Below are positions 8,506 to 32,301 of a stretch of 40,957 nt of DNA, in pieces. The notes beneath the pieces are model-generated. The model was not told the DNA's origin and did no database searches. It saw only the letters and a program-made list of their open reading frames with translations. Every line of letters begins with the position of its first letter. Position 1 is the stretch's first letter. Origin of the DNA: Kiritimatiellia bacterium (GTDB taxonomy: Bacteria > Verrucomicrobiota > Kiritimatiellia > UBA8416 > SLMC01); contig SLKS01000223.1 in the NCBI GenBank assembly GCA_007134465.1, positions 1 to 40,957 on the forward strand, given 5' to 3'. Made by a program: the position numbers and the translations under genes.

Positions 8506-10389
8506 TTATCTTGCAAGCAAAACGGAAAGAGCGGCGATATCGGCCGGGCTGACGCCGGGAATTCTTGCCGCATGGCCAAGCGTGCGCGGGCGAATTTTGG
8601 TGAGCTTTTCTCGCGCTTCATAGGAAAGCGCCTGACGAGACATAAAATCGAAATCGCTCGGAATGATTTTACGGTCCATTTCTTCCGTTTTACGAATGCG
8701 GACAAGGTCGCGCTCGATATATCCCCGATATTTCACGTGCAGTTCCACTTGCTCGATAACGGCGCGCGGAAGATCATCGCGACATCCGGGCATGGTCGCA
8801 TAGACAACCTCGGGGCGGGCCAGGATGTCGGCCAGCGCTTTCCCGCCGTGCCTCGTATTCGTCAAACGCAGAATTTCCTCGGCGATCATCTTCTCGTATC
8901 GTTCCGTTTCGTCGAGGTATTCTTTTTGCGCCAGTCCGATTTCGCGCGAAAGACGGCTCATCCTGAATCTGGCGTTGTCCTGTCGCAGCAGCAGCCGATA
9001 TTCCGCGCGCGACGTGAACATGCGGTATGGCTCGTCCGTTCCCTTGAGTACGAGGTCGTCAATCAGCACGCCAATATATCCGTCTCCTCGTCCGACAAGC
9101 GCAGGGGGTTTCCCTTTTATTTTCAAAGCGGCATTGACGCCGGCCATGAAGCCTTGTACCGCCGCTTCCTCGTACCCGGTCGTGCCGTTTACCTGTCCGG
9201 CGAGAAAAAGGTTTTCGACAACCTTCGATTCAAGAGCGTGCGTCAATTGGGTCGGATCGCAAAAATCGTACTCGATCGCATATCCATATCGCAAAATGCG
9301 CGCTTCTTCCAAACCGGGCACGGAATGCACCATCGCATCCTGAATTTCCTCGGGCAAACTGTTCGACAGTCCGTTCGGATATACCCAGTCGCTGTTCCGT
9401 CCCTCCGGTTCGACAAATACATGGTGAGAGGTACGGCCCCCGAACTTGACGATCTTATCTTCGATCGAAGGACAATAGCGTACCCCGGCCCCTTTGATGC
9501 CGCCCCCGTATAGCGAGCTTCTTTCGAGATTTTTCGCGACTATCTCATGCGTTTTCTCTGTTGTATGCGTCAAATGACAGGGAATCTGATCGCTGCCCGG
9601 TTTCCACGGCCGTAGCGGAGAGACGCTCTGTTCCACGTGGAACAATTTTCCCGACTGTTCCACGTGGAACAAATCCGCCTCTCTTCTGGCCTGCCAGGAA
9701 AAGAAAGGTGCCGGATCGGTTCCCGGTTGTTCCGTCATTCTGTCGTAGTCAATCGTTCTACTGCTCAACCTAGGCGGGGTTCCTGTTTTCAGGCGCGACG
9801 TACGAATGCCCAATTCTCTGATGCCATCGCGCAGAACTTCTCCTGTCGGCGCATCGAGTCTGCCGCCGGGCCATTGCCTGGCGCCCATATGAATGGCACC
9901 CGCCAGAAAAGTGCCAGCGGTCAAGATCACCGACTGGGCATGCACGGTTCTGCCGTCGCGCAAGGAAACGCCTGTTGTTCGGCGACCGGATGTCAGGATT
10001 CGGATGGCGTCGCCTTCCAGTATGTGCAAATTGGTCTGATCAAGGAGCACGTGGCGCATGCGCGAGGAGTAGCGTTCTTTATCGGATTGGACGCGGTTGG
10101 CCTGGACAGCCGGACCCTTCTTGGTGTTGAGCACGCGAAACTGGATGCCGGTACAGTCGGCATTGACCGGCATTTCTCCGCCCAGCGCGTCGAGCTCGAA
10201 AACCAGATGCGATTTGGCTATGCCACCCACGGCCGGATTGCAGGGCATCAAGGCCACATCGTTAATGCTGTGGGTGATCAGCGTTGTTTTCAGGCCCATG
10301 CGCGCGGCAGCCAAGGCCGCCTCGCACCCGGCATGCCCGCCACCAATTACGGCAATATCGAAAGTGGATGGATCAGGATTGTTTTGCAT
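8506..10389 (-). CDS. mnmG: tRNA uridine-5-carboxymethylaminomethyl(34) synthesis enzyme MnmG (GidA)
   Basis: DIAVIGGGHAGCEAALAAARMGLKTTLIT, MPCNPAVGGIAKSHLVFELDALGG, GLNTKKGPAVQANRVQSDK-like segments, CPSIEDKIVKF, FLAGQVNGTTGYEEAAVQG: near-diagnostic. Confidence 0.97.
   Translation of the reverse strand: MQNNPDPSTFDIAVIGGGHAGCEAALAAARMGLKTTLITHSINDVALMPCNPAVGGIAKSHLVFELDALGGEMPVNADCTGIQFRVLNTKKGPAVQANRVQSDKERYSSRMRHVLLDQTNLHILEGDAIRILTSGRRTTGVSLRDGRTVHAQSVILTAGTFLAGAIHMGARQWPGGRLDAPTGEVLRDGIRELGIRTSRLKTGTPPRLSSRTIDYDRMTEQPGTDPAPFFSWQARREADLFHVEQSGKLFHVEQSVSPLRPWKPGSDQIPCHLTHTTEKTHEIVAKNLERSSLYGGGIKGAGVRYCPSIEDKIVKFGGRTSHHVFVEPEGRNSDWVYPNGLSNSLPEEIQDAMVHSVPGLEEARILRYGYAIEYDFCDPTQLTHALESKVVENLFLAGQVNGTTGYEEAAVQGFMAGVNAALKIKGKPPALVGRGDGYIGVLIDDLVLKGTDEPYRMFTSRAEYRLLLRQDNARFRMSRLSREIGLAQKEYLDETERYEKMIAEEILRLTNTRHGGKALADILARPEVVYATMPGCRDDLPRAVIEQVELHVKYRGYIERDLVRIRKTEEMDRKIIPSDFDFMSRQALSYEAREKLTKIRPRTLGHAARIPGVSPADIAALSVLLAR
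9629..9644. promoter_or_regulatory. parS-like site TGTTCCACGTGGAACA (site 1)
   Basis: Perfect 16-bp palindrome matching the ParB-binding consensus (Pseudomonas-type TGTTCCACGTGGAACA; B. subtilis TGTTTCACGTGAAACA). Confidence 0.85.
9656..9671. promoter_or_regulatory. parS-like site TGTTCCACGTGGAACA (site 2)
   Basis: Second identical perfect palindrome, 27 bp from the first, in the same mnmG reading frame. Confidence 0.85.
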
Positions 10390-10466
10390 GGTTGAAACAA
10401 CTGTGGTATTTATAAGTCTTTCTACTACCTAGTTTTAGAGCTGCACAACGCTCGCAAATAGCCTGT

Positions 10467-10523
10467 GGGCCACCTCGCCTGTCCGCCATTATCGCGAAGC
10501 GTTAATGCGGGTAGCGGTGGCCC
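10467..10523. repeat. Long imperfect hairpin (GGGCCACC...CCGCCATTATCGC-GAA-GCGTTAATGCGG...GGTGGCCC)
   Basis: Outer 8-bp perfect stem plus inner paired blocks CCGC/GCGG, ATTA/TAAT, CGC/GCG with a GAA loop; intergenic. Confidence 0.7.
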
Positions 10524-10562
10524 TACTTGAGCATGCATCGAATCGCAGATGCAAATTCTCCG

Positions 10563-10583
10563 ACCTCTGACTTCTGCCATCTG
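10563..10583. repeat. Degenerate heptamer repeat ACCTCTG-ACTTCTG-CCATCTG
   Basis: Three consecutive 7-nt units. Confidence 0.5.
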
Positions 10584-10787
10584 GTTTGCTGGCGCAGCCC
10601 GCCTTGATTGATAGAACCATCATTCCGGGCGACAAGAACGGACCACGATTCACTTCTGTCGTTTCATAGAATGATCTTGGGTTATTTGCAACGACATTCA
10701 ACGCGGGCGCACTTCGTTTCCTTCGTTATCTTGAGCGAATGGGTCTCCCAAGTTCCCGGCTGTTCTTTCCGCGCGCGCTATCTCGTT

Positions 10788-11315
10788 TCACCCCGAAGGG
10801 GCTGGGCGGGAAAGCTTCGTGTAGTCCGCCCGAGCTTCGGCAAGCTTATAGAGCGATTTCCGGTCCGGCAACGGTTCGTAGCGGAAAGGGCGGCGCGGGT
10901 TCAGCCAGGCGTCGAGTCGCCGGCCCACGCGATCGGGATGACGATAGACGTCGCATTCCCACACCGCGCGCACACGCCAGCCAAGTCGCATCAGTTCCCG
11001 GCGGTTTCGCTGATCGCGCGCGACGTTCGTTTCGAATTTCTTCCGCCAATAGTCGCTGCGCGTACTGGGCATGGTTGCCGACGGGCACCCCGCATGCCGA
11101 TGCCAGAAGCAACCATGCACGAAGACGGCCGCGCGGTATTTCGGCAGAACGATGTCGGGTCGGCCCGGCAGAGCGCGATTGCGCGGGCCGCGCACGGTGA
11201 AACGATAGCCCATGCGATGCAAGAGCATGCGCACCATGATTTCGGGCTTCGTGTTGCGGCTGCGCACCCGGCTCATGATCCAGCGGCGATGGGCTTGGCT
11301 GATGCGATCGGTCAT
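10788..11315 (-). CDS. vsr: Very short patch repair (Vsr) endonuclease
   Basis: MTDRISQAHRRWIMSRVRSRNTKPEIMVRMLLHRMGYRFTVRGPRNRALPGRPDIVLPKYRAAVFVHGCFWHRHAGC...YWRKKFETNVARDQRNRRELMRLGWRVRAVWECDV: canonical Vsr motifs. Confidence 0.93.
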   Translation of the reverse strand: MTDRISQAHRRWIMSRVRSRNTKPEIMVRMLLHRMGYRFTVRGPRNRALPGRPDIVLPKYRAAVFVHGCFWHRHAGCPSATMPSTRSDYWRKKFETNVARDQRNRRELMRLGWRVRAVWECDVYRHPDRVGRRLDAWLNPRRPFRYEPLPDRKSLYKLAEARADYTKLSRPAPSG

Positions 11316-11476
11316 GTCAGAGTTTTCCGAGAACAAACACGGTTTCGCCAACACCATGAGCCATTGATTTCCGAACAAGCCGTCGCAGGCGATGTCCGTC
11401 AGCTATGTCGAGGACTAGACCGAGCGCTATTCGCTGCTTTCAACGAGAACGATTCTCCCGTCATCCTTCTCTCTTT

Positions 11477-11656
11477 TTTATCGGCGTCATGTATCACGGG
11501 ACGCCCAAGCTCGACGCGAAGGCCACCGCGGTCAACCCGGCGTTGCAGGCGGCGCTGGATCGCGACCTCGACGCCGAGCTGGACGACATGAGAAACGATC
11601 TGCGCTCGTTCACCTTCTATCCGGTCGTCAGCCTCGGCCTGGCTTTCCGCTTCTGA
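11477..11656 (+). pseudogene. 3' remnant of an outer-membrane beta-barrel protein
   Basis: FIGVMYHGTPKLDAKATAVNPALQAALDRDLDAELDDMRNDLRSFTFYPVVSLGLAFRF* resembles the C-terminus of a family of proteobacterial-type OMPs ending in YPVVSLG..(Y/F)RF; no upstream body of the gene. Confidence 0.6.
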
Positions 11657-11669
11657 AGCGAGAAAAGCG

Positions 11670-13202
11670 CTACGGCCGTGCCGCGCGCCGCAGGCGGTCG
11701 TTGATCGCGCGGCCGAGTCCACTCTCCGGGACGAGTTCGGCCTCGATTCGGTCCAGCCCGATTCCGTCCAACCGCCGCAACGAGCCGAACAGGCGCGCGG
11801 CGGCTTCGCGCAGATCGCCGGTTTCGGAAAGAATCTCGACCGCCGCGCATGGCGAAGCATCGGCGGGAACGGACTGAAAGGCCAGCAACCCGACGCGGTC
11901 GGCAACCGACGCCGGAAGCGGTTCAGCGATCGGCCTTAGCCGCAAGGGCGTACGGGACGCATAATGCCGCGTCATCATGCCCGGCGCGGGCGCCGGCTGG
12001 CCGTCCGCAACGGAAGCGCCTATTTCCAACGGTCCGATCAGGGCTTCAATCTCCTCGACCGCGATGCCGCCCGACCGCAAGAGCGCGGGCCGAGTCCCCA
12101 GCAGCGATACGATTGTGGATTCCACGCCCACGGCGCAGGGGCCGCCGTCCAGAACCAAATCGGCCCGTTCGCCCAGCCCGGCACGCACATGGTCCGCCGT
12201 CGTGGGGCTCACGCTGCCGAACGGGTTCGCGCTGGGCGCAGCCAGGGGAACGCCGGCCTGCCGGATCAGCGCCAACGCCAGCGGATGACGCGGCATGCGC
12301 ACGGCCACGCTCGGCAGGCCTGCCGTGGCCAGATCGGGCACGCATGGCCGTTTGGGCAGCACAAGCGTTAGCGGGCCGGGCCAGAAGGCGTCGGCCAGCC
12401 GTTGCGCGGGTTCGGGAACGGATTCGGCCAGGGTCGCCAGCGCGGCGCGGTCGGCGATATGGACGATGAGCGGATCGAAATGCGGCCGGTTCTTAGCCTC
12501 GAACACGCGGGCCAGCGCGCGTTCGTCAAAGACCGATGCGCCGAGCCCATACACGGTTTCGGTGGGAAAAGCAACGATGCCGCCCGAACGCAAGCGCGCG
12601 GCGGCATCTCTCAACGCGGACGGGTTCTCGTCCAGCAACGTACGCAGGTCCAGCGCGGCTTCGATCCAATCGGCGGCCTCGCGAATGCCGGGCACAACGA
12701 GCGTGTTCGCGGTCAGCTCATGCCGATGCTTTTCGCCATGACCGGTCCTGACGTACAGTCCGGTTCCTCCCGCATTTTCAGCGAAGAGTACGTCGGCCGG
12801 ATGATCGCCGACCATGAAACAGCGAGCGGGGTCCAGTCCATACTCGCGCGCGGCCTGTTCCAGAAAGAACGGCTTGGGCTTGACGCAGGCGCATCCGTCC
12901 TCGCGCGCATGCGGACAGCAATAGACCCGTTCGACCCGTACGCCGTCGCCGGCCAGCCGCGCGACGACGGCGTCGTTGACCGCGCGCACCTCGTCTTCCG
13001 TGGCCTCTCCCTGCGCGATGCAGGGCTGATGCGTGACGATGAACAGAAGCGCGCGCCGCTGCAAACGGCGCAAGGCAGGCGCGGCATCGGGAAAGAACAT
13101 GGCCTGTTCCGGCCGCCGCAGCACGCCGCGCTCCTCGATCAGCGTTCCGTCCCGATCCAGAAAGACGGCGGTCCCGCCCGCAGGCGATTCGTTGTTTGAC
13201 AT
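11670..13202 (-). CDS. Fusion: HAD D-glycero-D-manno-heptose-1,7-bisphosphate phosphatase-like (GmhB) + threonylcarbamoyl-AMP synthase (TsaC/Sua5)
   Basis: N-term AVFLDRDGTLIEERG...CCPHAREDGCACVKPKP...CFMVGDHPADVLFAENAG; C-term GGIVAFPTETVYGLGASVFDERALARVFEAKNRPHFDPLIVHI...PSANPFGSVSPTTADHV. Start at MSNNESPAGG (13202). Confidence 0.9.
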   Translation of the reverse strand: MSNNESPAGGTAVFLDRDGTLIEERGVLRRPEQAMFFPDAAPALRRLQRRALLFIVTHQPCIAQGEATEDEVRAVNDAVVARLAGDGVRVERVYCCPHAREDGCACVKPKPFFLEQAAREYGLDPARCFMVGDHPADVLFAENAGGTGLYVRTGHGEKHRHELTANTLVVPGIREAADWIEAALDLRTLLDENPSALRDAAARLRSGGIVAFPTETVYGLGASVFDERALARVFEAKNRPHFDPLIVHIADRAALATLAESVPEPAQRLADAFWPGPLTLVLPKRPCVPDLATAGLPSVAVRMPRHPLALALIRQAGVPLAAPSANPFGSVSPTTADHVRAGLGERADLVLDGGPCAVGVESTIVSLLGTRPALLRSGGIAVEEIEALIGPLEIGASVADGQPAPAPGMMTRHYASRTPLRLRPIAEPLPASVADRVGLLAFQSVPADASPCAAVEILSETGDLREAAARLFGSLRRLDGIGLDRIEAELVPESGLGRAINDRLRRAARP

Positions 13203-13286
13203 TTCGACTCCGGATAGGCTAGTTTCGTTTCCAATGCGAGTGCGTCGGCCCAGTGGCAGACCAGCCTCCTTTCGGGAGGACGAACC

Positions 13287-14585
13287 ATGAAGACGAACTA
13301 TCCGAATAAACCAAAGGACCGATTCGAGGTCTACCGTTTTTTCAACGGCCTTTCCGTCGAGGGGAAAGACGGGTTGGACCGTCAGCAAACCCGCTTGCCG
13401 CTAGTCAAGAGTTTTCTCTTCGAGCACGTGTCCTCCCGTAACGGTAGAACGCCCCGATCTCCGAAAGAAATTTTCGGATCTTTAGGGGTAAAATGCGAGT
13501 TTCTTGACGAAACGTTCACGGAGTTGCGCGATCTGGACCAAGTCGGCCCTTCGGGCAAAGAACGTCTAAGAACCGTTGGGTATGTCGAACAATACTCTGA
13601 ACGGTTTTTCGCGTACTACACCTGTGACGAATCGCAGAATTCCGGCAAACGCGCGGCCGGATGGATTACGCGTTCGCCCGATCTCGATTTCACATGGTTC
13701 AGCGGCCCCCTTTTGCAACGTCTTTGGGATACCGATGTGAGTCAACGGGACGACAATCGGTTCAGCAAATTGAGTTTCATGCACGAAAGCGTCTTCGAGA
13801 TGCCGGAAGATGCCAGCCATGAATCTTTGGACGCCGATGAAGACGAGTCGGCGGAGAGTATATCCGACACCCCAGACGATGACAATGATTCGCCGGAATT
13901 CGAAAGACGCAAGGCCCGCTTCCAAATGGCCGACCGCATAGGGCGAATCAAAGAGTCTCTTGGCAGTTTACAACAGACGTACAAGCCGCTCCATGCCTTG
14001 TATGCGCTTCGTTTCCCCTCGCGATCAGGCAAAGGGTGCCACGATCTCTATCAACAGGGACGCATAACCAATCGTTCGTCAAGCTTCGAGGAACATCGAA
14101 ACTTGGTCCGTTATTTGTATCGCACGTACGATTCCGTGCTCATGCGCACAGAGGAAACGGCTTGGCATAGCGCCGAAATCCTTCCCTCGGGAATGCGCGC
14201 GAACATCGGGACCAAAGGGGTGCCGCTTATTGTCCGTTTTCAAGAAGAGCTTACGGAAGCGACGTTCCGGCGATGGGTGACCCTTGCCTTCCGGAAGCGC
14301 AACGCGTTTCGCTTATGGGGCGAGCCAATCTGGCTGGGACCCAAAAAGGTGCATGTTTACGGGGCCGACCGCCATCTTTGGCAGCCGATCAACCTTGAGT
14401 TGACCGAAAAAGGTTTGACAGCGATCTTGCCGCAAGGAACGTGCGGGAACACGTTTCATCGTCTTGTGACAAATATCCAGACCTATGTCTGTCCCGCGAT
14501 AGACGCCTGGCTGGGCGCAGATGAATTCCGGTCCATCGTTGATAATTCCATCGAATCGTCTGGAGGGTATATTGATGAAGGCTGA
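13287..14585 (+). CDS. orfA: uncharacterised 432-aa protein at the start of the defence operon
   Basis: Good RBS (GGGAGG) before ATG; acidic linker EDASHESLDADEDESAESISDTPDDDNDSPEFERRK; overlaps orfB by 11 bp; no family recognised. Confidence 0.8.
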   Translation: MKTNYPNKPKDRFEVYRFFNGLSVEGKDGLDRQQTRLPLVKSFLFEHVSSRNGRTPRSPKEIFGSLGVKCEFLDETFTELRDLDQVGPSGKERLRTVGYVEQYSERFFAYYTCDESQNSGKRAAGWITRSPDLDFTWFSGPLLQRLWDTDVSQRDDNRFSKLSFMHESVFEMPEDASHESLDADEDESAESISDTPDDDNDSPEFERRKARFQMADRIGRIKESLGSLQQTYKPLHALYALRFPSRSGKGCHDLYQQGRITNRSSSFEEHRNLVRYLYRTYDSVLMRTEETAWHSAEILPSGMRANIGTKGVPLIVRFQEELTEATFRRWVTLAFRKRNAFRLWGEPIWLGPKKVHVYGADRHLWQPINLELTEKGLTAILPQGTCGNTFHRLVTNIQTYVCPAIDAWLGADEFRSIVDNSIESSGGYIDEG

Positions 14586-15648
14586 AGCGCTTTTGAGCGA
14601 TCCCGGCTTTCAGCTCAATTTATTGCTTTGGATGACACGCGCTCAGCCGCCGGAAGCTTATTTAGTTCGCCCGATTTTCAGGGAGCAAGGCTTCTCGTTG
14701 CTGTACATTGAGAACCCCTTGCCCCTGCCGGAGGAGACCGCGCAAAAGGCAGCATCGTCAGGAATGGCCGTCAGCGTCAATCCTGAACCAGATGTGCTTT
14801 TGCGTCGCGAGCGTGACAACACAGCGCTTTGCATCGAAGCCAAAGGACGGGCTTTTTCCAGCAACAGCTCTACCGCCAGGCAAGCGCGAGGGCACTTGCT
14901 GGCATGTGGCCCCGCCTTTGCCGAAACGCTGAAACCGTTGACAAGCAGCCTTTTATGCTACCTGGTCCCAAACGCGGAAACCGACTACATGGGGCAATGC
15001 CTTTCCGAGCTGAGTCGCGAACTGAGCAATGCAGGATTTAAGCCTGGCGATCACTGTGTTCATGGGCTTCATATGGACGGCTCCGCCGTCGTCTATTCAT
15101 GGGATTCTGAGTTCAGAGTGTATGCCGGATACGATTCCGACAGCGCAATTGTCATGCGAAACCTTCAAGACGGCACAGACCCCAGCCCTCTCTTTTTGGT
15201 TTTCAGCGACGAAGATTATCCCGATCCGGAACGACAAGAATTAAATCGCAAAGCTTTTCAAAACCAAGTTTATGCGGCTTTGCTCTGTCAAATCCAACAA
15301 ACGGCGGCTGGCGAAATCTATTCCCGGACGATTCGTGATTTGCTTTTGAACACCACAGACGGGATTTTTCAATATATCGGCAGGGATCGGCAATTGCGCA
15401 TGTGCCGATTGGTGCGCGAAAACATATTCAAACGCATATTGTCGTATTGGAAAGAGCGCATTCCTGACCTCGTGTCGCTAGACTCGGATTCCCTGATTGT
15501 GCGTTTTGCCGACAGCGCGCGCCGCGAGCAGTTTCTCGACTGGCTTGAAGATTACAAGAGAACTGCATTCGCCTGCGACAAACCGCCAGATGAAGAACCA
15601 CTGCCGCTTCTGGAAATGATGAACCGGAACGACACGACTGACACTTAG
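14575..15648 (+). CDS. orfB: uncharacterised protein with predicted PD-(D/E)XK nuclease motif
   Basis: RBS GGAGGG; PDVLLRRERDNTALCIEAKGR (D73...E88-x-K90) matches PD...ExK; ends 15 bp before hsdM. Confidence 0.75.
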   Translation: MKAEALLSDPGFQLNLLLWMTRAQPPEAYLVRPIFREQGFSLLYIENPLPLPEETAQKAASSGMAVSVNPEPDVLLRRERDNTALCIEAKGRAFSSNSSTARQARGHLLACGPAFAETLKPLTSSLLCYLVPNAETDYMGQCLSELSRELSNAGFKPGDHCVHGLHMDGSAVVYSWDSEFRVYAGYDSDSAIVMRNLQDGTDPSPLFLVFSDEDYPDPERQELNRKAFQNQVYAALLCQIQQTAAGEIYSRTIRDLLLNTTDGIFQYIGRDRQLRMCRLVRENIFKRILSYWKERIPDLVSLDSDSLIVRFADSARREQFLDWLEDYKRTAFACDKPPDEEPLPLLEMMNRNDTTDT

Positions 15649-15663
15649 ATCCCCGGAACAATC

Positions 15664-17814
15664 ATGACGCAAGTTGAATTGTCGAATTTCATTTGGTCGG
15701 TGGCGGACTTGATACGGGGTCCGTACCGCCCGCCGCAGTACGAACGCGTGATGCTGCCCCTGACGGTGTTGCGCCGGTTCGACTGTGTCCTGGCGGACAC
15801 GAAGCCGGCCGTGCTCAAGCGATACAGGCAGCTTGAGGGCGGGAAGGTCAAGAACCTGGACCCGATTCTGAACAAAGTGGCGGGGAACGGGACGGACATC
15901 GGATTCCATAATCACAGCGAACTGGATTTCGAGAAGCTCAAGGGCGAGCCGGACGCCATCGCGCTGAACCTCATGCAGTACATCAAGGGGTTTTCGGCCA
16001 ACGTTCGCGACATTTTTCTGGAATATTTCGAGTTTCAGGCCGAAATCGAAAAGCTCGAAGAGGCGAACCGCCTGTATCTGGTCGTTCAGAAGTTCGCAGA
16101 CATAAACATGCATCCCGACGTTGTGGACAACATTCACATGGGGATGATCTTCGAGGACCTGATCCGGCGGTTCAACGAAGCGGCGAACGAGACGGCCGGC
16201 GATCATTTCACCCCGCGCGAAGTCGTCCGCCTGATGGTGAATCTTCTGCTGGAGCCGGATTCGGATGTGTTCAAGCGCGGCGTGATCAAAACCATGCTCG
16301 ACCCGGCGTGCGGCACGGGCGGCATGCTCGCGGTGTCGCAGAACTGGATTCACGATCACAACCACGGCGCGACGCTCGTCGTCCATGGTCAGGACTACAA
16401 CAAGCGCGCGTATGCCATCGCCGCTTCGGACATGCTCATCAAGGGACACAAGAACAGCCGGATCGAGTTTGGAAACACGTTGATTGACGATAAGTTCCCG
16501 GATATCCGCTTCGATTATTTCCTGGCCAATCCGCCGTTTGGCGTGAACTGGGAGACGGAACGGAAAAGAATCGGCGAAGAACACAAGAAGAAGGGCTACG
16601 ACGGGCGATTCGGTCCGGGTTTGCCACGCGTCAGCGACGGCGCGCTGCTGTTCCTGCTTCACATGGCCTCCAAGTTCCAGGCGTACGAACCGGACAACCC
16701 CGAGAAGCAAGGCAGCCGGCTCGGGATCGTGTTCAACGGGTCGCCCCTCTTTACCGGCGGCGCCGGATCCGGCGAAAGTGAAATCCGGCGCTGGATCATC
16801 CAAAACGATTGGCTGGAGGCCATCGTCGCACTGCCCGAGAGCATGTTCTACAACACGGGGATCGGGACCTACCTGTGGGTGGTGACGAACCGTAAGGAGA
16901 AGCACCGTGCAGGCAAAATCCAGTTGATCGACGCGCGCGAGCGTTGGGCCCCGATGCGGCGTTCTCTGGGGGACAAGCGCCGCTACATTCCGGATGATAT
17001 GCTCGACCTGATTTCGAAGGAACATGGCGCATTCGCATCGGGCGAAACGTGCAAAATCTTTGACAACGAAGATTTCGGGTTTCGGCGTATTACAGTCGAG
17101 CGTCCTCTGCGCTTAAGCTTTCAGATCACACCCGAACGCCGGGAACAGTTTCTGGACCAATGTCCGCACCTGCTCGACTTGTTGCGAACGATCGAGGGAG
17201 AATTGGGGGCGGAGCGCTATGACGACTGGAACGAGGTCGCCGACCGCGTAGACGAGGCCGTCCAGTCCGAGGATGGCAAATGGACGGCCAAGGAGAAGGC
17301 CTTCTTCCGCGCCGTGTTCACGAGCACCGATCCCGAGTGCGTACCCGTCATCAAGAAGGCGAGCAAGAGCCTGCCTGCGACAGCGAAGGAACTGATTCGG
17401 CAGCGCACAAAAGCGACGGGGATGTCCAAGAGCGAACTGGCCCGCGTGTACGGGTATAGCGACGGAGGGTCGGCCTCCGTGCCGACCTCAAGAGGCGCGG
17501 GTGGAACCGCGCCCTCCAGCGGCGTGATTCAGTTCGAAGCAGACACGAAACTGCGCGACTTCGAGAACGTGCCGCTGAAGGAACCCATCGAGAGGTTCTT
17601 CCTGCGCGAGGTCCGGCCCTACATGGCCGACGCATGGATCAGCGACGCCGTGATCGACGACGGCGATAACGGCGTCGGCAAGGTCGGGTTCGAGATCAAC
17701 TTCAACCGCTACTTCTACCGTTACGAGCCGCCGCGGCCGTTGGAAGAAATCGACGCCGAACTTGAGGCTGTTGAAAAGCGTATTGTTCAGCTTTTGAGCA
17801 AGGTAACCGAATGA
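15664..17814 (+). CDS. hsdM: Type I restriction-modification system methyltransferase subunit
   Basis: DHFTPREVVRLMVNLLLEP, LDPACGTGGMLAVSQ, FDYFLANPPFGVNW. Confidence 0.97.
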   Translation: MTQVELSNFIWSVADLIRGPYRPPQYERVMLPLTVLRRFDCVLADTKPAVLKRYRQLEGGKVKNLDPILNKVAGNGTDIGFHNHSELDFEKLKGEPDAIALNLMQYIKGFSANVRDIFLEYFEFQAEIEKLEEANRLYLVVQKFADINMHPDVVDNIHMGMIFEDLIRRFNEAANETAGDHFTPREVVRLMVNLLLEPDSDVFKRGVIKTMLDPACGTGGMLAVSQNWIHDHNHGATLVVHGQDYNKRAYAIAASDMLIKGHKNSRIEFGNTLIDDKFPDIRFDYFLANPPFGVNWETERKRIGEEHKKKGYDGRFGPGLPRVSDGALLFLLHMASKFQAYEPDNPEKQGSRLGIVFNGSPLFTGGAGSGESEIRRWIIQNDWLEAIVALPESMFYNTGIGTYLWVVTNRKEKHRAGKIQLIDARERWAPMRRSLGDKRRYIPDDMLDLISKEHGAFASGETCKIFDNEDFGFRRITVERPLRLSFQITPERREQFLDQCPHLLDLLRTIEGELGAERYDDWNEVADRVDEAVQSEDGKWTAKEKAFFRAVFTSTDPECVPVIKKASKSLPATAKELIRQRTKATGMSKSELARVYGYSDGGSASVPTSRGAGGTAPSSGVIQFEADTKLRDFENVPLKEPIERFFLREVRPYMADAWISDAVIDDGDNGVGKVGFEINFNRYFYRYEPPRPLEEIDAELEAVEKRIVQLLSKVTE
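17464..17517. repeat. 54-bp in-frame palindromic element inside hsdM (GGAGGG...two hairpins...CCCTCC)
   Basis: Outer GGAGGG/CCCTCC stem enclosing GTCGG..CCGAC and GGCGCGG..CCGCGCC hairpins; exactly 18 codons. Confidence 0.65.
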
Positions 17815-19325
17815 CCATTCCGCGGACAAAGCCATTTAAGGCGGGCTTCGCCCGCAACCCAACGGCCTTCGGCCGAGATTCCTCGCAAGCTCGGAATGAC
17901 AAAATCCAGGGTGCCACGCTAAAACAGTCCGTCATCCCGAGCCTGCGAGGGATCTCGCCGAAGGCGCAAAAACATACACGCAATAACGTATATCTTCACC
18001 GGAAAGGCTTTAAATCGGCATGGAACGGGGTCAGGTTCAAATACCTGGCCGATGTCCGAAAAGGGCGTCTGCCGTACACTGCGGAATCATCCTCTGGCGA
18101 CGCTTTGCCATATCTTTCTATGGAGTATCTCAGGGGGCAAACTGACGAGCCGTCTTTCGCAGCAGCCCGAGAGGACAGTGTTGTTGCCGAAGATGGCGAT
18201 TCACTGCTCCTCTGGGACGGGGCAAACGCTGGCGAGTTTCTTCGGGCGCGCCGAGGCGTGGTCTCCTCGACAGCGGCGCTTGTGTCTCCAAGAGAGGTTG
18301 ACGGCGAGTTTTTGTATTGGACTTGCAAAGGCCATGAACGCTACGTGAGAGCAGAGACTGTCGTCATGGGTATTCCTCATGTCAATGGAGAGTTTCTGGA
18401 CAACCTTGTTCTCCGTGTGCCCCCCATATCCACGCAGAAGGCAATAGCCCACTATCTGTGCCGGGAAACGGCCCGCATAGACGACCTGATCGCCGAAAAG
18501 GAAAAGATGCTCAAGCTTTTGGAAGAGAAGCGAACGGCGCTAATTTCGCGCGCGGTGACGAAAGGCATTGACCCGAATGTGAGGATGCGCCCATCGGGAG
18601 TGGAACTTGTGCGGAGCATTCCGGAACATTGGAAAATCATCCGGCTGAAACACTTGGCAGAAATATACTATGGATTGAGTCAACCGCCCGAATATCGGAA
18701 TGACGGCATCGCGTTTGTGCGCGCCACGAACGTAAAGAGAGGTCGAATCGTAGCCGAAGGACTCGTTTTCGTGGAGGAGGCGGACTTGCCTTCATCGCGA
18801 GTGATTCGCCTACATGAAGGCGATATCATCGTGGTGCGGAGTGGTGCGTACACGGGCGATTCAGGCCTAGTAACGAAGGAATGGCGCAGATCAGTCGCCG
18901 GATACGATATGGTGTTGCGCTTCGGCGCCTCGGTCGAGCCAGAGTTTGTGCAATATGCGCTTCTTTCCCCTTATGTTTTGAACTATCAGATTGACCCCCT
19001 TTGCATCCGTGCGGCACAACCTCACCTGAACGCCGAGGAACTGGGCGACGTTGCGATTTTGCTCCCTTCCCGTCAAGAACAACAGGCAATTGTGGACTTC
19101 GTGCGGCCTATTCTTGCCGAGATGGATGACCTGATTGTCGTATTGCGCGATTCTCTCCGCCTTCTCGGCGAGCGCCGGACGACCCTCGTTTCCGCTGCGG
19201 TAACGGGACGGATTGACATCCCCGCCACGCCTGACTACCCCGAGTTCGGCGGTCGGGCCGCATTGCCGCTGGCGGCGGAGGGGCGGGCGGAGTATGGCAG
19301 CGCCATGGTAAAGAACAAGCATTGA
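17811..19325 (+). CDS. hsdS: Type I restriction-modification specificity subunit
   Basis: Two TRD-like halves; PPISTQKAIAHYLCRETARIDDLIAEKEKMLKLLEEKRTALISRAVTKG conserved helix; SGVELVRSIPEHWKIIRLKHLA; ATGA overlap with hsdM. Confidence 0.93.
   Translation: MTIPRTKPFKAGFARNPTAFGRDSSQARNDKIQGATLKQSVIPSLRGISPKAQKHTRNNVYLHRKGFKSAWNGVRFKYLADVRKGRLPYTAESSSGDALPYLSMEYLRGQTDEPSFAAAREDSVVAEDGDSLLLWDGANAGEFLRARRGVVSSTAALVSPREVDGEFLYWTCKGHERYVRAETVVMGIPHVNGEFLDNLVLRVPPISTQKAIAHYLCRETARIDDLIAEKEKMLKLLEEKRTALISRAVTKGIDPNVRMRPSGVELVRSIPEHWKIIRLKHLAEIYYGLSQPPEYRNDGIAFVRATNVKRGRIVAEGLVFVEEADLPSSRVIRLHEGDIIVVRSGAYTGDSGLVTKEWRRSVAGYDMVLRFGASVEPEFVQYALLSPYVLNYQIDPLCIRAAQPHLNAEELGDVAILLPSRQEQQAIVDFVRPILAEMDDLIVVLRDSLRLLGERRTTLVSAAVTGRIDIPATPDYPEFGGRAALPLAAEGRAEYGSAMVKNKH
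17841..17855. repeat. GCGGGCTTCGCCCGC palindrome in the 5' end of hsdS
   Basis: Identical core to 659-673; flanks TTTAAG/AACCC shared with other copies. Confidence 0.7.
17865..17965. repeat. 101-bp REPIN/MITE-like inverted repeat in the 5' end of hsdS
   Basis: Left arm GCCTTCGGCCGAGATTCCTCGCAAGCTCGGAATGAC; right arm reverse complement GCCTTCGGCGAGATCCCTCGCAGGCTCGGGATGAC; 30-bp spacer. Confidence 0.85.
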
Positions 19326-19384
19326 CGGAGCACGAGCCTGCTTGGCGGGCGCGCGGACGGCGGGATCGAGCCAGAAAGGACGCC

Positions 19385-20545
19385 ATGCAATTCAAACGCT
19401 TGAAGCTGAGGAACTGGCGGAACTTCGTCAACGTCGACATCGACATCGGACAACGGCTCTTTCTGACCGGCCCAAACGCGAGCGGGAAATCCAACATGCT
19501 TGACGTCTTCCGGTTCTTGCGAGACATCGCGAAAACAGGCGGCGGGTTGCAGCAGGCTGTCAGGGAACGCGGGGGGCTGTCGAAGATTCGCTGTCTCGCG
19601 GCGCGCCGATACCCGGATGTCGAAATCGAAGTCGCGCTTTATGACGACTCCGAGTCGCCAGCCGTGCAGTGGCGGTACGGGTTGGGGCTTCGGCAGGAAT
19701 CTCGTGGACAGCGGCGTGTGCTGCTCTCCTATGAACGCGTCTGGAAGGACGACCGAATGCTTCTAAATCGGCCTGCGGACAATGAGGAAGATCGGCGCGA
19801 CGAAGTGCGCCTGACGCAGACTCATCTTGAGCAGATCAACTCCAACGTGGCTTTCCGTTCGGTTGCCGGCGCGTTCGAGAAGGTGCTTTATCTTCACCTG
19901 GTGCCCCAACTTCTGAAACATCCCGAATTGGCCAATCGCGACGCAGCGGGAGAAGATCCGTTCGGCATACGTTTTCTTGAGCGTGTGATGATAACGCCGG
20001 AGAAGACGCGGCGATCGCGGCTAAAGAAGATTGAACAGGCGCTTCGGATTGCGGTTCCCGAATTGAAAGACCTGTCGGATATGCGCGACGAGCGCGGGTT
20101 TCCACATCTGGAGGCGCTTTACGAACACTGGCAGCCTCATGGGGGACGGCAGCGCGAGGACCAGTTCTCGGACGGGACACTGCGACTGATCGGTCTGCTG
20201 TGGACTTTGCTTGATGGCGATGCACTGCTTCTTCTGGAGGAGCCGGAGCTTTCGCTGCACGCTCAGATTGTGACGCGCCTGCCTGCCCTTATCTGGAAAC
20301 TTCAAAGGGGCAAAGGGCGGCAGGCGCTTGTTTCATCGCACAGCGCAGAGCTTTTTGGCGACAAGGGGATCAAACCGTCGGAGGTCGCGCTCTTGCGCCC
20401 GCGCGGAGCCGAGGGAACCGTCGTGGAGCTGGCGTCGGAGAAGGAAGACGTGCGCCTCCTGCTTGAAGGGGGCATGACCATCGCCGACGCCGTACTCCCC
20501 ATGACCGCGCCGGCAAATATCGAACAGTTGACGCTCTTCGAATGA
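19385..20545 (+). CDS. AAA family (SMC/OLD-like, COG4637-type) ATPase
   Basis: MQFKRLKLRNWRNFVNVDIDI, Walker A GPNASGKSN, Walker B DALLLLEEPELSLH, ALVSSHSAEL; RBS AAAGGA before ATG 19385 (alternative TTG start at 19322). Confidence 0.9.
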   Translation: MQFKRLKLRNWRNFVNVDIDIGQRLFLTGPNASGKSNMLDVFRFLRDIAKTGGGLQQAVRERGGLSKIRCLAARRYPDVEIEVALYDDSESPAVQWRYGLGLRQESRGQRRVLLSYERVWKDDRMLLNRPADNEEDRRDEVRLTQTHLEQINSNVAFRSVAGAFEKVLYLHLVPQLLKHPELANRDAAGEDPFGIRFLERVMITPEKTRRSRLKKIEQALRIAVPELKDLSDMRDERGFPHLEALYEHWQPHGGRQREDQFSDGTLRLIGLLWTLLDGDALLLLEEPELSLHAQIVTRLPALIWKLQRGKGRQALVSSHSAELFGDKGIKPSEVALLRPRGAEGTVVELASEKEDVRLLLEGGMTIADAVLPMTAPANIEQLTLFE

Positions 20546-21165
20546 AACAGCCGATACCAATCTACCTGGCCGTGGAGGACGAACTCAGCGAGTGGGTTGT
20601 TCGGCGGGTTCTGTCCGGTCGCAAAGATCGCTTCGTTGTTGGGCCTGTGTTCGGCCGGTCTGGCTTTGGCTACCTCAAGAAGCAGACCCTGGCCTTCAAC
20701 AACGCCGCCAAGGGATGTCCCTTTTTGCTCTTGACCGACCTCGACAAATACGCCTGCCCGCCCGAACTGCTTGCCGATTGGCTGCCTGTTGAAAAACAGA
20801 GGTTCTTTCTGCTGCGCGTTGCGGTTCGGGAGGTCGAAAGCTGGTTGCTCGGCGACGCGCTTGGACTGGGGCGTTTTCTCAGGCTGCGCGCATCTCCAGC
20901 CGTCTCGGATCCCGAGTCGTTGCAAGATCCGAAGCAGGAAGTGCTAGCCTGTGCGTATCGCTCTCCGAACAGGATAATGCGGGAATCTTTGGTCTGGCGA
21001 GACGAAGGCTCCGGACGGCTCTATCAAGGCCCAGACTACAACGGCACGTTATCGCGCTTTGTGAAAGGCTCGTGGAATCTCAGCGCCGCGAAACGCAAAT
21101 GCCGTAGCCTCGCCAAACTGTGCAAGGCCGTCGAACGGCTTGAAGCGGAGTACGAAAAGATATGA
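20542..21165 (+). CDS. DUF4276-family/TOPRIM-like protein
   Basis: PIYLAVEDELSEWVVRRVL, PFLLLTDLDKYACP (DxD), LRVAVREVESWLLGD; ATGA overlaps with ATPase and hsdR. Confidence 0.7.
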   Translation: MKQPIPIYLAVEDELSEWVVRRVLSGRKDRFVVGPVFGRSGFGYLKKQTLAFNNAAKGCPFLLLTDLDKYACPPELLADWLPVEKQRFFLLRVAVREVESWLLGDALGLGRFLRLRASPAVSDPESLQDPKQEVLACAYRSPNRIMRESLVWRDEGSGRLYQGPDYNGTLSRFVKGSWNLSAAKRKCRSLAKLCKAVERLEAEYEKI

Positions 21166-24100
21166 CAGGCTCCCACACAGAACAGCCTTTTGAATCTCTG
21201 ATCGAGGCGCATCTCCTTGCCCATGGGTGGGAGCCTGTGCCAAGCACAGGCTACGACCGCGCGCGGGGACTGTTCTCGGAAATAGCGCTCGATTTTCTCC
21301 GTACAACGCAGGCGAAAAAGTGGGGAAAATTGGAGAAGCTGCACGGCGAGCATACCGGCGAGATTGTACTGTCCGACCTGTGCCGGATGCTCGACAAGCT
21401 GGGGTGCCTGACCGTGATCCGGCACGGGTTCAAGTGTTACGGACAGCTTCTGCGGGTGGCGTTCTACCGGCCGGCGCATGGAATGAACCCGGAAGCGGCT
21501 AAGCTCTACCAGGCGAACCGGCTAGGCGTGACCCGGCAATTGCATTTCAGCGAGCGGCATCCCGAATACTCGGTGGACATGGTTCTGAGCCTGAACGGCA
21601 TCCCCCTGGCGACCGCCGAACTGAAGAATCCGATGACCGGTTCAACGGTGGAGGATGCCCAAAAGCAATATCGGAGCGAGCGTCGGGATCCGCATGAGCT
21701 GCTTTTGGCCTTCAAGCGGCGGACGCTGGTTCATTTCGCGGTGGATACGGAGCGCGTGGCGATGACCACGAAGCTCGCAGGCAGCGCAACCGCGTTCCTG
21801 CCGTTCAACTGCGGATTCAGGGACGGCGCGGGAAATCCGCCAGACGAGGCGGGCATGAAACATCGCACGGCATACCTGTGGGAGGACGTGTGGGCGCGGG
21901 ACACCTGGCTGGACATCGTGGGCCGGTTTGTCCATCTCCAGCTTGAAGAGCGTCGCACGGACGAGGGCGAGACCATCAAGAAGGAAGTGATGGTATTTCC
22001 CCGTTACCATCAGCTCGATGCGGTTCGGGTGCTTGAGCAGGCCGCGCGCGAAGAGGGGCCGGGACACAACTATCTTGTCGAACACTCCGCCGGGAGCGGC
22101 AAGAGCAATACGATCGCCTGGCTCGCGCACCGGTTGTGCAGTCTGCATGACGAGAAAGACCAGAAGGTCTTCGATACGGTGGTGGTGATCAGCGACCGCC
22201 GGGTTCTCGACCGGCAGTTGCAGGATACGATCTATCAGTTCGACCACAAGCAGGGCGTAGTGCAGAAGATAGACAAGGACTCGCGGCAGCTCGCGGAGGC
22301 GCTGAGTTCCGGTGTTCCCGTGGTGATCACGACCTTGCAGAAATTCCCTTTTGTGACCCGGCAGCTCGCAAAGATCGCGGAGGAAGCAGGCGAAGGCGGC
22401 AACGGGCTGCTTCCGAAGCGGCGCTATGCCGTGATTATCGACGAAGCGCACAGTTCCCAGAGCGGCGAGGGCGCGGCCGAAATGAAGGAAGTGCTGGGGG
22501 GCGAGACGCTGCGGGAGAAGGTGGCGAGGGAAGCCGAAGGCGAGAAGATCGAAGACTACGAGAAGGAAATTCTCCGCGCGATTGCCCGTCGCGGACGCCA
22601 GGAGCACATCAGCTTCTTCGCCTTCACGGCCACCCCGAAGCACAAGACTTTCGGAGTGTTCGGCCGAAACGGGAAGCCTTCCCACAGGTACACGATGCGG
22701 CAAGCGATCGAAGAAGGCTTCATCATGGACGTTTTGAAACACTACACGACGTACAAGACGTATTACCGTCTATTGAAGTCGTGCGAGGACGATCCGAACG
22801 TGGTGCGGAAGAAAGCGGCCAAGGCGCTTGCGCGCTTCATGCGCCTGCACCCCCACAACATTGCGCAGAAGACCGAAGTGATGCTGGAGCATTTCCGGTC
22901 GCAGACGCGGCACAAGATCGGGGGGCGCGCAAAGGCGATGGTTGCGACCGGATCGCGCCTGGAGGCCGTGCGGTACAAGCAGAGCTTCGACCGGTATATC
23001 AAGGAGAAAGGCTACAAGGGAATCAAGGCGCTGGTGGCCTTCTCGGGCGTCGTGAAGGACGACAAAGTCGAGGGCAAGACGTACACCGAAGAACAGATGA
23101 ACGACGGCATTCGGGAAAGCCAGTTGCCGGACAAGTTCGCCACATCCGAGTATCAGGTTCTGCTTGTCGCCGAGAAATACCAGACTGGCTTCGACCAGCC
23201 CTTGCTGCACACGATGTATGTTGACCGTCGGCTGGCGGGCATCCAGGCTGTGCAAAGCCTTTCAAGATTGAACCGCATGCATCCGTTGAAGGAGGACACG
23301 TTCATTCTCGATTTCGTCAACGACCGCAAGGAAATCTTTCGGGCGTTTCAGGATTATTACGAGGGGGCCGAGCCCGGCGAGGAGCCGCAACCGGCAAAGC
23401 TCTACGAGATCGAGGCGGATCTGAACGAGTCGGCTCTGTACACGGGCGGCGATGTGGAGTCGTTCTGCCAAGTGTTTTTCTTGGCGAAACGTCGGTCCAG
23501 CCCTGGCGACCATGCGCGAATGGAAGCGGCGCTCGAACCGTCCGTCGAGCGGTTCAAGAAGATGAAGGAAGAAGACGACGAAGCGGCCGAAACGCTACGC
23601 GCCAAGATTCAGACCTTTCGCAGCCTCTACGGCTATCTGGCGCAGATTATGCCGTTTCAGGATTCAGACCTCGAGAAGCTGTATACATTCCTGCGTTTCC
23701 TGAGCGCGAAGCTGCCGAAACGCGGGTCTGGACCGGAGTACGATTTCGACGACGAGGTCCGGCTGGAGTTCTACCGGCTGCAGAAAATCAGCGAAGGCTC
23801 GATTGCGCTCAAGTCCGGGTACGGTAATGCCCTGAAAGGCCCTGTGGACGTTGGAACCCGCGTTGTGCGGGAAACGCCCATGGAACTTTCGAGGCTCATA
23901 GACCTGCTGAACGAGCGTTTCGGCACCGATTTCACCGATGCGGATCAGCTTTACTTCGACCAAATTCGCCAAGCCGCCGTTCAAAGCGAAGATTTGCGCC
24001 AAGCCGCCGAAGCGAACCCTCTGGACAAATTTCAAATCCTGTTCCGCAACATTCTACAGTCTCTGGTTGTAGACCGAATGGAACAGAACGAGGAATTGAC

Positions 24101-24242
24101 GGCCAAGGTTTTGAACGACGATGCCTTCCAAAATCTGGTCTCGCGCTGGCTGGGCGAGGAAGTGTACCGAAAGCTGCTTGACCGCGCTTTGCCGTCGGAC
24201 AAAGCGCGCGCATCCTACGCCCGTTCCCCGATGGGCGTATAG
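21162..24242 (+). CDS. hsdR: Type I restriction endonuclease subunit R
   Basis: VDMVLSLNGIPLATAELKNP nuclease motif, LVEHSAGSGKSNTIAWLAHRL Walker A, YAVIIDEAHSSQSG, TATPKHKT, LLVAEKYQTGFDQPLLHTMYVDRRLAGIQAVQSLSRLNR. Confidence 0.97.
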   Translation: MTGSHTEQPFESLIEAHLLAHGWEPVPSTGYDRARGLFSEIALDFLRTTQAKKWGKLEKLHGEHTGEIVLSDLCRMLDKLGCLTVIRHGFKCYGQLLRVAFYRPAHGMNPEAAKLYQANRLGVTRQLHFSERHPEYSVDMVLSLNGIPLATAELKNPMTGSTVEDAQKQYRSERRDPHELLLAFKRRTLVHFAVDTERVAMTTKLAGSATAFLPFNCGFRDGAGNPPDEAGMKHRTAYLWEDVWARDTWLDIVGRFVHLQLEERRTDEGETIKKEVMVFPRYHQLDAVRVLEQAAREEGPGHNYLVEHSAGSGKSNTIAWLAHRLCSLHDEKDQKVFDTVVVISDRRVLDRQLQDTIYQFDHKQGVVQKIDKDSRQLAEALSSGVPVVITTLQKFPFVTRQLAKIAEEAGEGGNGLLPKRRYAVIIDEAHSSQSGEGAAEMKEVLGGETLREKVAREAEGEKIEDYEKEILRAIARRGRQEHISFFAFTATPKHKTFGVFGRNGKPSHRYTMRQAIEEGFIMDVLKHYTTYKTYYRLLKSCEDDPNVVRKKAAKALARFMRLHPHNIAQKTEVMLEHFRSQTRHKIGGRAKAMVATGSRLEAVRYKQSFDRYIKEKGYKGIKALVAFSGVVKDDKVEGKTYTEEQMNDGIRESQLPDKFATSEYQVLLVAEKYQTGFDQPLLHTMYVDRRLAGIQAVQSLSRLNRMHPLKEDTFILDFVNDRKEIFRAFQDYYEGAEPGEEPQPAKLYEIEADLNESALYTGGDVESFCQVFFLAKRRSSPGDHARMEAALEPSVERFKKMKEEDDEAAETLRAKIQTFRSLYGYLAQIMPFQDSDLEKLYTFLRFLSAKLPKRGSGPEYDFDDEVRLEFYRLQKISEGSIALKSGYGNALKGPVDVGTRVVRETPMELSRLIDLLNERFGTDFTDADQLYFDQIRQAAVQSEDLRQAAEANPLDKFQILFRNILQSLVVDRMEQNEELTAKVLNDDAFQNLVSRWLGEEVYRKLLDRALPSDKARASYARSPMGV

Positions 24243-30481: not shown

Positions 30482-31384
30482 ATGTCCAATTCTTCCGACC
30501 TGTCCGCGCGCATCGTCGCGCATCCGTTTCCCGACCCGTCCGCCGTCTCGGACACAACCGGCGTTTCGGGCATGGAGAGCGTATCGTCATCGTTGCTCCC
30601 CCGAATCCACTGGTTCGAATGGGAAGATTGCTCCTGGCTGCCCGTCTTCCTGCGCGATGCCATTACCGACGCCCTCGGTCTGATCATGAAAACTTTCCGC
30701 GCCTACAGGCCGGCATTTCCGCTCCTGCGCGAATGGGCGGGCGAGAGTAAAACCTTGCTCGACATGGCCAGCGGCAGCGGCACGCATGTGCGCGAACTGC
30801 GGCAATGGGCGGATGCGAAGGGCGCCCCGATTCCTGCCGTGCGGGTCAGCGATTTGTACCCGTCCCGCGATCGCTTTCAGGCGCTGGAATCGGCATTCCC
30901 GAACCGCGTTCGCGCCGTGAAGGAACCGGTGGACGCCACGGCCGTTCCCGAACAGCTTCGGCGGCTCCCGCGCACCATGTTCACCGCCTTTCATCATCTG
31001 GCGCCAGATCAGGCCCGCGCGGCGCTGGCCGATGCCGCCCTCCACGCGGACGGAATTTTGATCTACGAGCCGCACCCGCGAACGATCCGCAATATGCTGG
31101 CCAACATCCCCGGCCTGATCTTCGGCATGCTGACGCCGTTTCTGGCGGGAAAATTCTCCTGGAAACGCTTGCTGTTCTGCACGCTGATCCCGATCGTCCC
31201 GCTTCTGCTGGTTCACGACGGCATCGTCTCCGTGCTGCGCTGCTACACGGCCGCCGAATTCCGCGCCATGATCGCCTCGTTGCCCGACAACAACATGACA
31301 TGGCGGATTGTCGAGGTTCCGGGCGAAGGCGCCATGCGCTTTATGAAAGGGCTCTGCGTGATCGGGAAAAGAGCAAAAGGATGA
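30482..31384 (+). CDS. SAM-dependent methyltransferase-like protein with C-terminal hydrophobic segment
   Basis: SKTLLDMASGSGTHVRELRQW motif I; ...IPGLIFGMLTPFLAGKFSWKRLLFCTLIPIVPLLLVHDGIVSVLRCYTAAEF. Confidence 0.7.
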   Translation: MSNSSDLSARIVAHPFPDPSAVSDTTGVSGMESVSSSLLPRIHWFEWEDCSWLPVFLRDAITDALGLIMKTFRAYRPAFPLLREWAGESKTLLDMASGSGTHVRELRQWADAKGAPIPAVRVSDLYPSRDRFQALESAFPNRVRAVKEPVDATAVPEQLRRLPRTMFTAFHHLAPDQARAALADAALHADGILIYEPHPRTIRNMLANIPGLIFGMLTPFLAGKFSWKRLLFCTLIPIVPLLLVHDGIVSVLRCYTAAEFRAMIASLPDNNMTWRIVEVPGEGAMRFMKGLCVIGKRAKG

Positions 31385-32301
31385 ATGCCATGAACGCTCC
31401 TTGCGAGATCGAAAGAACCGGAAGCCCGAGCGCGGTTTCATGGGCTCTGCCGAGGCAGGATTGGCTGACGAGCCCGCTGTCGGAGACATGGACGGCAAGC
31501 CGACAAACAGCGCACAGGGACGAAGCGCATGACAACGAGCTTATGCGTTTCGGAAAAGACGGCAGGTTCATTGTGCGGCGGGCGCGATCGGGCGAGGATC
31601 GGCTGCGCTGCTGGAATCTGGTCTATCGCGAATATCTGGCCATGGGCTATGTGCAGCCGCAGGACAAACCCTATCGCTACACGGCCCATGACGCCTTGCC
31701 GAACACGGCCACGTTCTTCATCGAAGTGGACGGGCGCCTGGCCGGATGCGCAACGGTGTTTCCATTTTCGCCAACGGGACAGCCTGCCGACGAAGCGTAC
31801 GGAGCGGAACTGGCCGCATTGCGCCAGGCCGGGCGGCGCCCGGTCGAAGTCGGGCGGCTGACGATCTCATCCGAATTCAAGCACGAACGGGAAATCCTGG
31901 CTCGCCTGTTCGACACGATTTCGATCGCGGCGCGGCGGCTGATGGACGGCACGGACCTGGTCGTGACCGTGAACCCTTCGCATGCGAAGTTCTATGAACG
32001 CATGCTTTGCTTCGAGCGAATCGGCAAGGAAAAGACGCTCGGTTGCGTATCCGGCGCGCCGGCGCTTCTGCTCCGCCTGTCGGCCGAAACGGAAACAGCC
32101 ATGCGGCGCTGGGCGCACGACGAAGGCCCGCTCCCCGAAAAATTCGATGGCGGACGCACCCTCTATCCGCGACTGTCCGACCGTGCCGGCGAGGAAACGC
32201 TGGTTCGGCGGTTGCGGCGCACGGGCTCCTCCGCGCCGCTGCCCGAATCGTTTCTGCGTCGCTGGTTCGCCTCGACGACTTCCGCCCATTCCGCCGCGTA
32301 A
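31381..32301 (+). CDS. FeeM-like N-acyl amino acid synthase/GNAT-superfamily acyltransferase
   Basis: CWNLVYREYLAMGYVQPQD...TATFFIEVDGRLAGCATVF...VEVGRLTISSEF...VVTVNPSHAKFYERMLCFERIGKEKTLGCVSGAPALLLRL; ATGA overlap with the methyltransferase. Confidence 0.75.
   Translation: MNAMNAPCEIERTGSPSAVSWALPRQDWLTSPLSETWTASRQTAHRDEAHDNELMRFGKDGRFIVRRARSGEDRLRCWNLVYREYLAMGYVQPQDKPYRYTAHDALPNTATFFIEVDGRLAGCATVFPFSPTGQPADEAYGAELAALRQAGRRPVEVGRLTISSEFKHEREILARLFDTISIAARRLMDGTDLVVTVNPSHAKFYERMLCFERIGKEKTLGCVSGAPALLLRLSAETETAMRRWAHDEGPLPEKFDGGRTLYPRLSDRAGEETLVRRLRRTGSSAPLPESFLRRWFASTTSAHSAA

Follow-up and report, generated by a model that had tools for sequence, protein, structure and literature searches.

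Two overlapping genes from a Kiritimatiellia bacterium, orfA and orfB, probably form a two-protein restriction-type defence module with a PD-(D/E)XK nuclease, a module new to the libraries searched. The pair lies in a 40,957-nucleotide stretch of contig SLKS01000223.1 (hereafter the window). It couples a probable DNA-cutting enzyme to an uncharacterised partner and recurs in mobile elements and distant hosts; it therefore looks like a mobile defence system.

On the forward strand, orfA runs from an ATG at 13287 to a stop at 14585 (432 aa) and orfB from an ATG at 14575 to a stop at 15648 (357 aa), as an earlier note on this DNA had proposed; the two genes overlap by 11 bp. Each is preceded by a good Shine-Dalgarno sequence. 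For orfA the probable ribosome-binding site is a purine-rich GGGAGGA stretch at 13272 to 13279, ahead of the ATG at 13287. An in-frame ATG at 14521 would give a longer orfB; the start at 14575 has a good Shine-Dalgarno sequence (CTGGAGGGTATATTGATG) and is the same in relatives. The placement of the pair directly upstream of hsdM was likewise confirmed. A gap of 15 bp on the same strand separates orfB from hsdM (15664 to 17814), which was identified by PF02384 (4e-48) and PF12161 (1e-21). The neighbouring operon, outside the module, continues on the forward strand with hsdS (17811-19325), an AAA ATPase gene HEC-01A (19322-20545), a DUF4276-like gene HEC-01B (20542-21165) and hsdR (21162-24242). 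Throughout 15664-24242 each gene overlaps the next, and the HEC-01A/HEC-01B pair nested between hsdS and hsdR is a candidate second defence system inside the type I restriction-modification (R-M) operon. Downstream of the island, positions 30805-32301 encode a FeeM-like N-acyl amino acid synthase (PF21926, E 2e-41). Scans for tRNAs, Rfam families and flanking repeats revealed none bounding the orfA-orfB pair, and promoter and terminator scans gave chance-level results only. A clean empty site was not found in sister genomes because the flanking Sua5-like gene has other neighbours there.

Full-length OrfA was accompanied by an adjacent OrfB at all eight loci recovered, with the genes overlapping or abutting (0 to 32 bp). 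The seven loci beyond the window belong to two uncultured bacteria of the same phylum, plasmids of Metabacillus and Lysinibacillus, a Bacillaceae-type prophage, a Halobacterium plasmid and the large plasmid of M. jannaschii; the mobile carriers of the pair are thus four plasmids and one prophage. A tblastn search of plasmids revealed OrfA homologues on the Metabacillus, M. jannaschii large, Halobacterium and Lysinibacillus plasmids, each followed immediately by an OrfB-sized gene, with the Metabacillus protein sharing 31% identity over 95%. The prophage copy resides in a prophage-like viral contig (L014) near an ImmA-like gene and the start of an integrase. Both same-phylum copies are chromosomal, one among phosphomannomutase and other genes (L005, contig CAITUY010000197) and the other inside a cobalamin gene cluster (L003/L011). 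Including the window's own genome, the family was present in 3 of 388 genomes of the phylum, as counted from one search with OrfB and one with an OrfA profile whose genome sets overlapped without being identical, and in 2 of 346 genomes of the class. The same-genus and same-family genomes available for search yielded no match. The family is therefore rare and patchy, yet it spans Bacteria and Archaea. In the OrfA tree, Lysinibacillus falls near the archaea and apart from Metabacillus (support 0.85-1.0, from only eight sequences), a placement consistent with horizontal transfer; its position in the OrfB tree is unsettled (support 0.22).

Decayed copies were also observed. Locus L006 (8242-9697; also recovered as L012) retains about 20 N-terminal residues of OrfA and the C-terminal third of OrfB, and between these remnants lies an insertion containing a deaminase-like ORF whose end resembles a helix-turn-helix. 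Beside this decayed pair (10012-16286) lie genes for a 1535-aa protein without an assigned family and then a response-regulator/phosphotransferase-like protein, neither of which gave a PADLOC match. In L022 (5902-7616, G042), part of the OrfA C-terminal domain is fused to a TnpB-like zinc-finger end; a Csx3 gene lies about 0.8 kb away.

The putative nuclease core of OrfB, D73...E88-x-K90...Q103-x3-H107, was located at 14791 to 14895 on the forward strand from column conservation in the alignment. The order D...E-x-K...Q-x3-Y is that of RecB/Cas4-type nucleases. The earlier note had assigned D73, E88 and K90 to a PD-(D/E)XK core, and this numbering is correct from the 14575 start. Since the minimal core motif arose in 4.4% of shuffled OrfB sequences (0.4% with the Q-x3-[YHF] extension), the motif alone is weak evidence; the evidence is its conservation across homologues. 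Columns 73, 88, 90, 103 and 107 are D/E, E/D, K, Q and Y/H in all alignment rows, and the protein is otherwise diverged, with 14-20% identity between distant groups. Conservation in every aligned homologue, bacterial and archaeal, lifts the predicted core above chance and, at the level of aligned residues, supports an active site of the PD-(D/E)XK type in OrfB. In profile comparisons, the window group matched the Bacillaceae group at E 4e-10, while the match between Bacillaceae and archaea (E 2e-4) was confined to the active-site stretch. The AlphaFold inputs for OrfA and OrfB were alignments of 3-4 rows, and the models were consequently poor; Foldseek matches were therefore kept out of the homology evidence. 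The OrfB model had a mean pLDDT of 44.7, with residues 1-216 below 50 apart from residue 81, and, poor as it was in the nuclease region, gave no significant fold match in Foldseek. Since the nuclease region was modelled without confidence, the restriction-endonuclease fold of OrfB is a prediction. The C-terminal region (residues about 218-330, predicted helical) was modelled with moderate confidence in the order helix-strand-helix-strand-strand-helix and looks like a winged helix.

OrfA is better conserved than its partner; a profile-profile comparison of the window and archaeal groups gave E 4e-17 over 355 columns. An N-terminal region (residues about 1-170) is followed by an acidic linker (about 170-206), a middle helical region with invariant G258, T261, H270, Y281 and E289, and a C-terminal domain (residues about 310-425; 14214 to 14561, forward strand) with the signature GxDxH...C[GA]NTxxRLxxNI. 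Drawn from seven sequences, the list of invariant residues further includes D361, H363, C386, N388, T389, R392 and N396, the last of which is H in the prophage homologue. The earlier note had suggested that the acidic linker may separate two domains. The linker is real (18 of the 40 residues from residue 167 are D or E) and a separable C-terminal domain exists, but the linker is a lineage-specific insertion confined to the window, L005 and L003 proteins and missing from the Metabacillus and prophage homologues. The C-terminal domain also occurs by itself: viral contig L013 encodes it as a 145-aa protein, and a diverged stand-alone form is a 146-aa plasmid protein in L018. In L013 (297-1403) it is followed by DNA methyltransferase genes instead of orfB; in L018 (9959-10399), a Natronosalvus plasmid, it belongs to a run of small overlapping genes and matches phrog_22469 at E 1e-11.

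The predicted strand-helix-four strands-helix order of this domain fits a beta-alpha-beta4-alpha repeat (block-mean pLDDT about 55-84, no significant fold match) and recalls RnlA, the RNase LS toxin, and TBP-like domains. Weak Foldseek matches to AdoMet decarboxylase, RnlA and TBP relatives, none below 1e-3, suggest a possible TBP-like fold. Its invariant polar residues could constitute a binding or catalytic site, beyond a mere DNA-binding surface. OrfA lacks the R-x4-6-H catalytic motif of HEPN RNases and RnlA-like toxins: H270 is invariant, but the R that should precede it in the motif is R or K. Unlike RnlA, OrfA does not keep the R/K in what might be an R-x6-H motif. No HEPN match was found.

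Searches of OrfA and OrfB against Pfam, PADLOC and the PDB (single sequences and family alignments) and NCBIfam (single sequences only) returned nothing above noise; matches at E 0.003-0.5, including a centriole protein and TBP, were rejected as noise. The contention that orfA belongs to no known family was borne out in these libraries, and no characterised non-defence family matched either gene. No PADLOC-DB 2.0.0 system model matched OrfA, OrfB or six homologues of each, the sole exception being a weak Cas8f match (E 0.029). OrfB shares with RecB/Cas4-order PD-(D/E)XK nucleases the P-[D/E]...[E/D]-x-K element followed by Q-x3-[Y/H] in all aligned homologues; it differs in having no Pfam or PDB sequence match, the M. 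jannaschii OrfB giving only a sub-threshold match to HSDR_N_2 (E 0.058), and any likeness in fold is predicted. Among PHROG families, phrog_22469, which has no assigned function, matched residues 253-402 of the window OrfA (E 1.3e-13) and OrfA homologues, in Halobacterium over the full length (E 2e-53). Archaeal OrfB homologues matched phrog_27163, which does not reach the window's OrfB, and in the PHROG library the pair bears no system name. Four OrfA queries found no relatives among the INPHARED phage records. In the literature searched, which lacks many subscription-journal papers and preprints, neither the M. jannaschii pair nor a two-gene system matching it was described, and the OrfA-OrfB pairing appears undescribed there. 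PD-(D/E)XK effectors are already known; the OrfA partner is missing from the curated family and defence libraries searched here, and PHROGs contain it only as unnamed families.

The defence reading draws on genomic context. The neighbours in the window are type I R-M and HEC-01; on the Lysinibacillus plasmid PDC-S28 is divergent and 336 bp upstream of the pair, and the large plasmid of M. jannaschii carries hsdM/S/R together with genes for an EVE protein and an ATPase-nuclease resembling OLD/AriA. Both Bacillaceae-type loci (L014 5336-7893; L007 14045-14761) have a gene for a PemK/MazF-like toxin upstream of orfA-orfB, with a transposase between toxin gene and pair in L014. Counting against defence, the two chromosomal copies (L005 and L011) and two plasmid copies (Halobacterium and Metabacillus) lack any recognised defence gene nearby, bar the PemK-like toxin in Metabacillus. 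Like HEC-01/PARIS-like pairs of an ATPase and a TOPRIM-like protein, orfA-orfB is a candidate two-gene effector pair of defence islands, and in the window a HEC-01 pair sits in the same operon. However, no ATPase domain is detectable in OrfA, the signature of OrfB is instead of the PD-(D/E)XK type, and neither protein matched the HEC-01 models.

The 15-bp same-strand gap to hsdM might suggest that orfA and orfB supply the adjacent type I R-M system with accessory subunits. We consider this very improbable. A type I component would be expected in constant association with hsdM/S/R, yet hsd genes adjoin the pair in the window only; none is adjacent at the seven other loci, those of M. jannaschii lying about 8-15 kb away on the same plasmid. 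Adjacency to hsdM in the window alone therefore argues that the module is not a set of R-M subunits. Base composition agrees, the G+C of the pair (53%) being lower than that of the adjacent hsd genes (56-59%) and of the window (61%). A separate module in front of the type I R-M/HEC-01 operon is strongly supported. Equally hard to credit is a coincidental motif, in which OrfB never was a nuclease or has lost the activity and the pair has another conserved function: the shuffle frequency of the motif in a single protein and the absence of structural confirmation from AlphaFold and Foldseek would allow it, but the catalytic columns are kept in all homologues while the surrounding sequence changes almost completely.

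Carriage on plasmids and a prophage also fits maintenance or replication roles. An addiction module akin to toxin-antitoxin systems, whereby OrfA restrains a toxic nuclease OrfB to maintain the plasmid or prophage, possibly with abortive infection as a by-product, is unlikely but deserves some weight. The four plasmids and one prophage, the overlapping and probably translationally coupled genes, and the PemK/MazF-like toxin genes upstream in the Bacillaceae-type loci all speak for it; conversely, proteins of about 310-440 aa are large for a classical type II pair, and stand-alone chromosomal copies exist. A plasmid or provirus DNA-processing module, accessory to replication, recombination or mobilisation, is a doubtful alternative. 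Carriage by plasmids and a provirus, the matches to phrog_22469 and phrog_27163 (neither with an assigned function) and the lone OrfA C-terminal domain, encoded on a viral contig and by one of several small, consecutive plasmid genes, are compatible with such a role, whereas copies amid chromosomal housekeeping genes (the cobalamin cluster of L011, phosphomannomutase and others in L005) and beside an R-M operon are unlike replication modules.

We therefore return to the defence module as the preferred reading. The earlier note had ventured a distinct nuclease-based defence module; its distinctness follows from relatives that have no adjacent hsd genes, and the defence role is supported by genomic context only. 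The conservation of the gene pair and of its predicted catalytic residues, the independence from R-M and the defence-rich mobile surroundings are directly observed; from these we infer nuclease activity, complex formation, a role for OrfA and invading DNA as the target. The two genes would act as a self-contained, horizontally mobile unit. OrfB would be the cutter, its N-terminal metal-dependent PD-(D/E)XK nuclease of RecB/Cas4-like motif order probably being steered to DNA by the winged-helix-like C-terminal domain. OrfA, the constant partner, is probably produced via coupled translation; its C-terminal domain, with the invariant polar site, probably recognises a trigger or invading nucleic acid, after which OrfA would license OrfB. 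More tentatively, the pair may represent a new two-component defence family of Bacteria and Archaea in which an OrfA sensor controls a PD-(D/E)XK nuclease by a recognition principle that other systems are not known to use; as part of the same tentative reading, the sensing site would be the D-x-H/C-N-T-R-N residues of the C-terminal domain, which is capable of standing alone.

Mutants of OrfA and OrfB can be designed directly from their conserved residues, and convenient test material is available in the copies from Metabacillus, the prophage and M. jannaschii. As OrfA is the more conserved protein and belongs to no curated family, its recognition target is a testable question. If the defence reading is true, the defence repertoire would gain a mobile nuclease pair that appears undescribed and is rare, yet shared by Bacteria and Archaea.
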